Below are positions 1,412 to 5,251 of a stretch of 64,000 nt of DNA, in pieces. A model generated the notes under the pieces. That model was not told the origin of the DNA and did not search any database. It saw nothing but the letters and a program-made list of their open reading frames with translations. The stretch is from contig JAKVCA010000024.1 in assembly GCA_022448315.1 (NCBI GenBank), forward strand, positions 62,001 to 126,000, read 5' to 3'. The position numbers were made by a program, and so were the translations under genes. Positions within the stretch are counted from its first letter, which is position 1, and every line of letters starts with the position of its first letter. The stretch comes from Pirellulaceae bacterium (lineage in GTDB: Bacteria > Planctomycetota > Planctomycetia > Pirellulales > Pirellulaceae).

Positions 1412-3652
1412 TTACATATGAAAGTTGAAGGTTCGCGCGAGATACCGGAAAAATCGCTGCCCAAGCGACCGATGTCCGGCGCGGATCCTCGCTTGACCCG
1501 TCATCCCGATCAGAACGTCTTCCGTCTCATTCATAAGACGACAAACAACCTCATAGGTCGGCTGCAATGGCTGCGATTGCCCCTCGGAATTAAATTCGGA
1601 AAGCAGGGGGCCTCCAAAACGCGCATCCAAAGCCGGATTGACTTCCTCCATCTTCGTGGAGGCAATCCGTTCTATTTTCGCGGAAAATCGTCGCCCCGAA
1701 GTATGCGAAAACTGAAGATCGACCTTTTGCCCAAGACGCAAAAACTCCATTTGTTCTTCCGTCACGGCAAGCACGACTTCAAGGCTTTTTGGATCGCCAA
1801 TCTGGCAAACGACCGTCGATGTTGCGACGTGGGCTCCTCGATTCGGCTCAGCGAATATCGCCCCGCTCCAAGTCGGCAACTGCCGACCGCGTTCCCCGTC
1901 GACTGCCACATACTTGGCACGTGGCGTCAATACGAAACCTGAGACTGGCGCTCGAACACGAAGGCTATCCGCTTCAGAAACCAACGCCTCATAGTGGGTG
2001 CGATGCACCTGAACATTTTCAGCCAGTGGAGGAACAAGGTCCCAAACTTCGTCCTCAAATCGAGCTTCCTGCCGAGCTGAGGTTAAACGGGCTGCCGCAA
2101 CCTTCCATTGGCCTAAGCTCTCCTCAACCTTCTGTTCTAGCTCGTGGTTCTCAAGCTCAAGTAATATTTCGCCTTTTTCAACCCACTCACCAGGAACGAG
2201 ATCCGACGTCACCACCTGCCCGGGAGCCTCGACAAATACGGTCTGAGCTTGCCCCGGCGTCACGACGACCACACTCGGCAAATAAAAGGGGAAGGGGAAC
2301 AGTCCCAGCATGAGGACACCGACGGCCGACAAGCTACCGGTAAGCAACACTCTTGTCGATTTCACTTGCTGAATCCTTCCTGGAGCCACTAAAAATTTTA
2401 AAAACTGCACCACCGGTCTGACCAGAAGTCCGTAGATTCCCAGCACCGCTAAGAACTGTCCGACGATTTTCAATCCGTAAGGCTCAAGCAGCTGATATAA
2501 AAACCAAAAGATGGAAAAAGCGATGACCCAACGGTACACCAAAGCGGCCACTGCGAAGGCAACAAACCAACCGACCCTCCGATGGGGCAAAAATGGATCC
2601 GGTGGCTGAGGAATCCCGAGCAGAACTCGCATGCACCAACGCTGGATCAGAACGCTTGCCTTCTGACGAAGGTTAGGAATTTCTACGAGATCCGAAAGAA
2701 TGTAATAGCCGTCGTACCTCATCAACGGGTTGGCATTGAACAACAGCGTGCTTACGGAACAAACGAACATGACGTTCAGACAAATGCCATTCAGCAAACC
2801 TGGCACGCTGAACCACCATAAAAAGGTGCAAATCGACGCCAGAACCAATTCCACGTACATGCCGGCAGCCCCAATCGCCGCTCGCTTCCACTTGCTAGGA
2901 ATCATCCAACTGTCGGTAACGTTGCAGTAAAGGCAGGGCATGAAGAGCAACAACATCACCCCCATCTCATGGCAACGCCCTCCCAGTCGGCGACACGCAA
3001 GGCCGTGACCCAACTCGTGAAGAACCTTCGTCAGGGAGAGCGTCAAAGCGAGCCAAAACCAATTGCCAGACCCAAAAAACTGCTGAAACCTCGGCAGTCG
3101 ATGTTGAACGATATCAAATTGACTTCCCAGCAGGAGCAGGGCGGAAAGCATCAACAGAATCCCGGCGACCACAGCAGGTCCACAGAACAACCAGCCAAAG
3201 CCGGCATTCAAACCGCCTAGCAGACGGTCGGGATCCACCCCTCGAAATCGAATCGAAAGGAAGTTCGAAAAAGCCGCTCGACGTTTTTGACGCTGGGACT
3301 CGACTGACCGGCGATACAATTGGTGCCCCTGGCCCCACGCGTGAGAAACCAGTAACCCAGTTCGATACATCTGCCCGACGAAATGCTGAATTTCGGAGAC
3401 GGTTATTTTTTGCGGTGCGAACCGAGACTCAAAACGTCGCTGCATCTGCTCCAGGCTCGTCTGCCCGTCGGCCCAACTCAGCAGCAAATACTCTTCCTCC
3501 TCGAACCGGTAGTATTTAAGTGCGATGGGATCTTTCACAATCCAATACTGACGACCAAGGTAACTCTGAGTCTGAACCTGCAGATCTTCACGCAGAGACA
3601 ACCGCAATGGGCGGCTGGTGCTCGAAGCCAATTTAGGTCCCGACTGAGTCAT
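1412..3652 (-). CDS. PqqD-like / M50 site-2-type metalloprotease / HlyD-type adaptor fusion, membrane protein
   Basis: The protein has 746 residues and starts at ATG 3652 (a TTG lies one codon upstream). Residues about 35-110 resemble a PqqD-type peptide-binding domain. A membrane protease module follows: HELGH at 212-216 supplies two zinc ligands and the catalytic Glu, and NANPLMRYDGYY around 307-318 supplies the third ligand, Asp314. Several hydrophobic segments surround both motifs. From about residue 450 to the end there is a HlyD/RND-adaptor-like part, with a TPGQAQTVFVEAPGQVV beta-barrel entry, a lipoyl half-motif (GEWVEKGEILLELEN), a short coiled coil and the second half (DSLRVRAPVSGFVLTP). 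It lies 45 bp downstream of the DUF481 barrel gene on the same strand, so the two are probably co-transcribed. The domain reading is from motifs; a role in peptide processing or export is inferred. Confidence 0.8.
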   Translation of the reverse strand: MTQSGPKLASSTSRPLRLSLREDLQVQTQSYLGRQYWIVKDPIALKYYRFEEEEYLLLSWADGQTSLEQMQRRFESRFAPQKITVSEIQHFVGQMYRTGLLVSHAWGQGHQLYRRSVESQRQKRRAAFSNFLSIRFRGVDPDRLLGGLNAGFGWLFCGPAVVAGILLMLSALLLLGSQFDIVQHRLPRFQQFFGSGNWFWLALTLSLTKVLHELGHGLACRRLGGRCHEMGVMLLLFMPCLYCNVTDSWMIPSKWKRAAIGAAGMYVELVLASICTFLWWFSVPGLLNGICLNVMFVCSVSTLLFNANPLMRYDGYYILSDLVEIPNLRQKASVLIQRWCMRVLLGIPQPPDPFLPHRRVGWFVAFAVAALVYRWVIAFSIFWFLYQLLEPYGLKIVGQFLAVLGIYGLLVRPVVQFLKFLVAPGRIQQVKSTRVLLTGSLSAVGVLMLGLFPFPFYLPSVVVVTPGQAQTVFVEAPGQVVTSDLVPGEWVEKGEILLELENHELEQKVEESLGQWKVAAARLTSARQEARFEDEVWDLVPPLAENVQVHRTHYEALVSEADSLRVRAPVSGFVLTPRAKYVAVDGERGRQLPTWSGAIFAEPNRGAHVATSTVVCQIGDPKSLEVVLAVTEEQMEFLRLGQKVDLQFSHTSGRRFSAKIERIASTKMEEVNPALDARFGGPLLSEFNSEGQSQPLQPTYEVVCRLMNETEDVLIGMTGQARIRAGHRSLGQRFFRYLARTFNFHM

Positions 3653-3697
3653 CAATGACTTTTCCGTGAGGTTCCTGAGAATCTTTTAAACCGTCGC

Positions 3698-4606
3698 TCA
3701 AAACTTCCAAAGCAACAAAAACGCATAGTTCAGATCGTTGGGTCTTGAGCCCTCCGGAGTGCTGTCGTATTCATCCCGAGCGTTGAATTTCAAACTCAAG
3801 TTGCCCTCTTCATCCAGCAACATTTCCCAACTGGCTTCCGTCACCAATCGAAACTGTTGGACAAAATCCATCTCAGGATAGTAGTCCACGGTCATCGAAA
3901 ACTTCTGACGCTTGGTCAACTGTCGCTTCAAGTCCAAGCCCATCACGCCTTCTGGGCTCCAACGGGCCGCGGGTGCACCAAATTCTCGCGAGGTCCCTGC
4001 ACCAAGACGTGTCTTCAGGAGGGTCGCGTCATTCCTGTAAATTACGTACCCCAGACCTGCATTCGCCACCCATCGATAGTCAAAATTTCGGAATCGATCG
4101 AACAAGAGATCGGACCGTGCAAACAGCGACCAATTGGTATTCCCCAATTCACGCTCGCGACCGATTTTGACCAGCATATTGTTTTTGACTTCGGTCCCCG
4201 TCGCGTAAGCGTTCGTGTAACGAAAACGAACAAATGAATGCCAGAGTTCTCGTTTCTGCTCAAGCTCCAAGCCGCTCTGGATGTTGAACGTCTGACTGTT
4301 GCCGCGATTGCCAGTGAGTCCAAGTTCAAAACTGATGTCCCACGACTCGCGGACATGCCAAGGGTCGAACCAATCGGCCTCATTGATTTCAGGCAACGCA
4401 CCGTAGAGCCGAAGATCTTTTACACGTGCAGGCGACAGGGTGCCGGCCTCAGGAGTGGGCTCGATGCCAATGTTCTCCACTGTCTTCGATTCGCTGGGGG
4501 CAGCAGACGCATTCGACGGAGTATCGGTATCCAGCGGTTCATCACTGACCGCCAAACTTGGGATCAACAGCGCGATCCCCAAGCTGATACTGACCCACTT
4601 GACCAT
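3698..4606 (-). CDS. DUF481 family outer-membrane beta-barrel protein
   Basis: The protein has 302 residues from ATG 4606, preceded by a GAGGGGG ribosome-binding site. A signal peptide (MVKWVSISLGIALLIPSLAVSD) and a Ser/Thr/Pro-rich linker are followed by alternating-residue beta strands typical of DUF481 (YdiY-like) barrels: SWDISFELGLTGNRGNSQTF, the YTNAYATG region, FDYRWVANAGLGYVIY and MTVDYYPEM. The chain ends in FLLLWKF, with a terminal Phe as expected for a Bam-inserted outer-membrane protein. It sits just upstream of the M50/HlyD fusion, so the pair could bridge the inner and outer membranes. The family assignment is good; the function of DUF481 proteins is unknown to me. Confidence 0.8.
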   Translation of the reverse strand: MVKWVSISLGIALLIPSLAVSDEPLDTDTPSNASAAPSESKTVENIGIEPTPEAGTLSPARVKDLRLYGALPEINEADWFDPWHVRESWDISFELGLTGNRGNSQTFNIQSGLELEQKRELWHSFVRFRYTNAYATGTEVKNNMLVKIGRERELGNTNWSLFARSDLLFDRFRNFDYRWVANAGLGYVIYRNDATLLKTRLGAGTSREFGAPAARWSPEGVMGLDLKRQLTKRQKFSMTVDYYPEMDFVQQFRLVTEASWEMLLDEEGNLSLKFNARDEYDSTPEGSRPNDLNYAFLLLWKF

Positions 4607-5251
4607 CAACAACCCCCTCGAAGATTCAAAACGGGTGATTCAGGGCCGATCGAATGCAGAATTCGGATCTTTCGCACGAGTTTGTTCACCGTGATCAAAC
4701 CCAACGCAATCCCTCGGTTGGCTTGTATCAAGCCACCGTGGATCCATCAAGACAAATTCAGTCCCGCGGGGTGACTGAGCGTGTTGCCCATCTCCCATTC
4801 GTTGGGCGTCAGTGGTGGAGCACCACACGCTAGCACCCGAAAACGATCCCACGAAAAGACTTTCAAAAGAACACATCGTGCAAAGGCCTTGCCTCTTAGC
4901 GACAGCATCGCGATCTCTGAGAATCAGGTTTCCCGTAGACAGGTTTCCCGTAGACAGGTTTCCCGTAGACAGGTTTCCCGTAGACAGGTTTCCCGTAGAC
5001 AAAGCGATCCAAGGCGGCAAAAATAGAATCCGAGGATCTCGTCAAGCCGAAGTTTTATCGTTTGATGAACGCACCGTTTCGCGAACGTGCTAGCGGCAGA
5101 GGTCACGGCCGCCTGTCGCCCAACCCAAACAGACGACATCCTGCCGAGCGAAGGCCGGGTGACACGAATAACAGGGTTCAACCGGCTTATCGGCGGAGAC
5201 CCGTCCTTTTTTCCCGCCGATTCAATAGCATCCCCTGAGGGGGTGGACGAC
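4607..5251. other. Divergent intergenic region between DUF481 (minus) and DUF1501 (plus)
   Basis: This stretch of about 640 bp separates divergent genes and should hold both promoters. No clear -35/-10 pair was recognised. Several frames stay open across it in part because of a perfect 15-bp repeat array, but none gives a recognisable protein. Confidence 0.6.
4926..5000. repeat. Perfect 15-bp tandem repeat, five copies
   Basis: The unit AGGTTTCCCGTAGAC is repeated five times without any mismatch (4926-4940, 4941-4955, 4956-4970, 4971-4985, 4986-5000). It lies in a non-coding divergent region, about 320 bp upstream of the DUF481 start and 250 bp upstream of the DUF1501 start. Five of six frames read through it, which produces false repetitive peptides. 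Confidence 0.97.

Follow-up and report, generated by a model that had tools for sequence, protein, structure and literature searches.

The locus raises the question of what a single polypeptide joining a PqqD-like domain, a membrane zinc protease and a HlyD-type adaptor would act upon, and with which partners. The preliminary description of the window (the whole stretch of 64,000 nucleotides analysed here, from a Pirellulaceae bacterium) paired this fusion with a DUF481 outer-membrane barrel and took the two together for a compact device that recognises, cuts and exports a peptide or protein. The fusion gene occupies positions 1412-3652 of the minus strand (ATG at 3652; 746 aa; open reading frame and family matches) and is present as a single copy in the genome. 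Pfam assigns Peptidase_M50 (PF02163, E=8e-10), HlyD_3 (PF13437, 2e-11) and HlyD_D23 (PF16576, 2e-8) to it. The M50 membrane protease domain (2294-3184, minus strand, residues 158-454, from PF02163 and hydropathy) contains six hydrophobic cores, and within it lie the HELGH zinc motif (3005-3019, minus strand, residues 213-217) and an NPLMRYDG motif (2708-2731, minus strand, residues 309-316) whose Asp315 is the presumed third zinc ligand. His213, Glu214, His217 and Asp315 are invariant from planctomycete to proteobacterial homologues. Judged by its sequence, with HExxH and a downstream Asp inside a membrane domain, this part would be a site-2 protease, and the protease is intact as had been claimed. 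The HlyD-type periplasmic adaptor domain (1415-2293, minus strand, residues 455-747) is predicted to be an adaptor both by its two Pfam matches and by its fold, which matches MacA (E=1.5e-12) and also MexA, again in line with the earlier reading.

For the N-terminal PqqD/RRE-like winged-helix domain (3344-3580, minus strand, approximately residues 26-104) the evidence comes from several directions. In the window's own protein PqqD stays below Pfam significance (PF05402), and the PDB sequence search was also negative. The homologues from Pontibrevibacter and Methylosinus (L178 and L179), however, score above the PF05402 cut-off in the corresponding region, and the NCBIfam daptide_HExxH model (NF041824) aligns with residues 34-419 of the fusion (E=2e-54), although the 185 bits reached are below its cut-off of 300. 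Residues 1-128, when modelled with AlphaFold2 (pLDDT 83.5), form three strands followed by three helices, and the leading solved Foldseek matches of this model are the leader-binding TbiB1 RRE, TigE and PqqD (probability 0.98-1.00); the best E value is just 0.0096, yet all the leading matches are PqqD/RRE domains. Since the daptide alignment, the homologues above the cut-off and the N-terminal model support the same fold, a PqqD/RRE fold is probable here. Structure prediction, as proposed in the preliminary description, thus recovers both the PqqD/RRE-like and the adaptor fold, with a modest full-length model (pTM 0.44), and the joining of PqqD-like, intact M50 and HlyD parts in one polypeptide is confirmed.

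The DUF481 gene (3698-4606, minus strand) encodes a protein of 302 aa that is a clear member of the DUF481 outer-membrane proteins (PF04338, E=6e-32), and its N-terminal hydropathy of 2.43 corresponds to a Sec-type hydrophobic signal; a sequence search of the PDB with this protein gave no match. It does precede the fusion by 45 bp on the same strand (4606-3698, then 3652-1412). The gap (3653-3697, minus strand) is consistent with co-transcription, and no promoter- or terminator-like site above the shuffled background was found within it. Upstream of the DUF481 gene there is also a perfect 15-bp tandem repeat (CAGGTTTCCCGTAGA) of 5.1 copies at 4925-5001 of the window. On surveying the family, we found that no fewer than 8 of 159 genomes, belonging to four genera, have DUF481 adjoining the fusion, on the same strand and with gaps of 1-105 bp (three of these genomes appear to be the same as those of loci L065-L067). 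DUF481 went undetected in 34 of the 159, nearly all of which retain the fusion, and the unpaired copies of other genomes lie in unrelated neighbourhoods of which none is consistent. The DUF481-paired loci group together in the fusion tree, but in the DUF481 tree, where support is weak, the paired copies do not form one clade. The adjacency expected of a conserved pair exists in a part of the family, but elsewhere the two genes are unlinked or DUF481 is not detected; with few adjacencies and paired copies outside one clade, the case for DUF481 as a generally conserved partner is weak. At most it is a lineage-specific accessory, which in some genera may contribute at the outer membrane, or may merely have been captured by rearrangement. 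It may be noted that one of the 20 unpaired DUF481 copies (L201 in genome G015) divergently adjoins an OEP of the type found with the fusion elsewhere.

Partners of the fusion were also sought in the wider group. A fusion homologue is present in all 60 relatives, and in 38 of the 51 planctomycete loci analysed a GAF-HlyD gene precedes it, usually with a small HlyD gene between them, so that the canonical planctomycete order is GAF-HlyD, HlyD, fusion. Further genes occur at some of these loci: a short SecA often, DUF3467, and an OEP in paralogous loci. In the present genome GAF-HlyD and HlyD are found together on contig C40, apart from the fusion, C52 carries a short SecA in addition to the ordinary long SecA of C65, and an OEP-type protein is encoded on C57. 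We then considered the genomes in which the fusion lacks adjacent adaptors, comprising six of the DUF481 type (this genome included) and three with a lone fusion. A full-length GAF-HlyD is encoded elsewhere in all nine, accompanied by an adjacent small HlyD except in one genome, whose ORF call did not resolve this small gene. Because they are kept elsewhere in the split genomes, the GAF-HlyD and HlyD adaptors are the steadier partners of the fusion, and the DUF481 case illustrates how one genomic neighbour can mislead when such partners sit at other sites. Short SecA-like proteins (some 640 aa), which differ from the long housekeeping SecA, recur together with these systems, as at L097 (2711-4642), at L136 (9498-11441) and on C52 of this genome (64372-66198), and small DUF3467 proteins recur beside the fusion in both phyla (L178, 11794-12075; L117, 2619-3008). 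Among the NCBIfam models we found none that names the exporter proteins.

A tblastn search of plasmids revealed fusion homologues across the proteobacteria, and 17 plasmid loci were opened, of which two carried no annotation and 15 were readable. At 12 of these 15 a giant gene is present in the cluster alongside HlyD proteins, most such clusters having also TolC, DUF3467 or a short SecA. The giant genes encode up to about 16,000 aa, the largest being that of Variovorax (48.7 kb); in the CP081100 cluster the giant gene is an unannotated ORF. An LEPR-XLL annotation (NCBIfam NF012209) is carried by the giants of three clusters. All 10 N-termini read from clustered giants contain the motif [LIM]E[PSA]Rxx[LFY][SDN], which was loosened after examples had been inspected and is to that extent weaker as a blind test, and none of them has a strong hydrophobic core. 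No motif-bearing giant was seen in the cluster at the Azospirillum sp. B510, A. ramasamyi and Phyllobacterium loci, a short SecA was not seen in several proteobacterial clusters, and no ABC exporter gene was found within the plasmid clusters read; the type I ABC/HlyD pair near the Phyllobacterium locus is a separate one. On an IncF plasmid of E. coli (L176) an Ig-like giant gene, TolC, two HlyD-type genes and an M50-HlyD fusion follow one another consecutively.

A linkage of the same type is observed in the second phylum. On comparing 150 listed planctomycete LEPR-XLL sites with the listed fusion homologues, 9 sites were found within 5 kb of a homologue against at most 0.72 expected (Poisson p~7e-8); at 10 kb the count was 12, where no more than 1.31 would be expected (about 9-fold, Poisson p~2e-8), while the DUF481 control gave no LEPR-XLL site within 10 kb. 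The remaining 138 of the 150 matches have no listed fusion homologue within 10 kb, and many of the linked cases are paralogous loci. In this genome the sole LEPR-XLL protein detected (contig C44, 47745-51626; 1,293 aa, SdrD-B-rich, with MEPRRMLDADP near its start) is encoded about 12 kb from the fusion, outside the window, the genes between them being unrelated; the LEPR motif scan within the window gave no match. The small precursor peptides that the preliminary description wished to see sought nearby did not appear, as neither a small precursor gene nor a RiPP enzyme was seen beside the fusion and the candidates linked to it are LEPR-type proteins of giant or large size. The cargo of the fusion is thus likely to be a large protein and not a small peptide.

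From this anatomy and linkage we consider it probable that the fusion is the recognition and processing subunit, at the inner membrane, of an ABC-free trans-envelope exporter for giant or large surface proteins with an N-terminal LEPR-XLL-type leader. In the cytoplasm this leader would be bound by the PqqD/RRE-like domain. Cleavage within the leader or close to it would fall to the M50 membrane domain, and the HlyD part would associate with the GAF-HlyD and HlyD adaptors, which are encoded separately, to guide the polypeptide chain to a TolC/OEP-type exit. Energy would probably be supplied by the short SecA-like ATPase where it is present, or else by another motor. Leader binding, cleavage, the direction of transport and its energisation are what we infer here. 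The earlier idea of a device that recognises, cuts and exports is supported in this form, but not its compactness, as GAF-HlyD, HlyD, short SecA and OEP are encoded elsewhere; as a counterpoint to our own reading, the parts of the system in this genome are spread over four contigs.

Other explanations were weighed against the same observations. The large LEPR proteins may take a different path across the inner membrane, with an M50-HlyD/GAF-HlyD complex only releasing or anchoring them at the envelope. Adaptors and a protease without an ABC transporter would fit such a role, as would the many LEPR proteins unlinked to the fusion and a SecA-like gene that is linked in some cases and not in all; however, TolC and three adaptors in one cluster with a giant gene have the appearance of a conduit for export, and the leaders have no strong Sec-type core, so that we regard processing alone as unlikely. 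That the fusion and DUF481 by themselves suffice for the recognition, cutting and export of a single peptide or protein, with DUF481 as the outer-membrane exit, is quite unlikely: the close same-strand pairing in at least 8 genomes of four genera and the clustering of these loci in the fusion tree speak for it, but GAF-HlyD is always present elsewhere in the genomes checked, an OEP-type protein is encoded in this genome, in most fusion-bearing genomes DUF481 either lies apart or goes undetected, and its paired copies do not form one clade in the weakly supported tree.

Very unlikely, in our estimate, is a RiPP maturation protease that would trim a small modified peptide in the manner of MpaP or YydH/LiaK and export it via the HlyD part. 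The fusion does have an M50 architecture like that of the daptide protease MpaP, whose model spans the PqqD-like part as well, and shares it with the epipeptide protease YydH/LiaK (NCBIfam alignment E=5e-12); the RRE fold of its N-terminal domain also agrees with such a function. Yet the fusion scores under both curated cut-offs and so was not accepted as a daptide protease (NF041824), it has an extra HlyD domain, no RiPP enzyme or precursor is seen nearby, and its neighbours encode large, even giant, proteins instead of small precursors.

The exporter that we favour also resembles the type I secretion of giant adhesins (TolC, HlyD adaptor and ABC transporter) in that a single cluster combines a TolC-type channel with HlyD adaptors and giant repeat proteins. 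It differs in that no ABC exporter was seen as a member of the fusion clusters read, the PqqD-M50-HlyD protein taking the inner-membrane place, and in that the shared cargo tag is N-terminal, whereas type I substrates carry a C-terminal signal. The clusters read were accordingly not classed as a type I secretion system. The LEPR-XLL family of NF012209 corresponds to the proposed cargo, its model describing the cargo tag only. An LEPR-XLL giant protein is mentioned in Vibrio (PMC10868602). Neither a description of this system nor an exporter assigned to LEPR-XLL proteins was found in the open-access literature searched, and as subscription journals and bioRxiv preprints fell mostly outside the search, the novelty is provisional. 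We therefore put forward only tentatively, as a possibility that falls somewhat short of even chances, that an RRE-M50-HlyD protein in the place of the ABC transporter marks a previously undescribed envelope-spanning system of planctomycetes and proteobacteria, which would read and cut an N-terminal LEPR-type leader of giant proteins and then, powered by a short SecA, pass the polypeptide through GAF-HlyD/HlyD adaptors to a TolC-type channel. The export of the largest proteins of bacteria is an open question in many lineages, and the linkage points to a testable machine, leader and protease; if the proposal is true, RRE-guided leader recognition would extend beyond small peptides to giant surface proteins. 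Lastly, a large peptidase gene lies downstream of the fusion on the same strand, some 200 bp away (positions 1-1214 of the window; 59843-63214 of C44), and its product, with propeller repeats and an S41-type protease, was read by eye as Tricorn-like.
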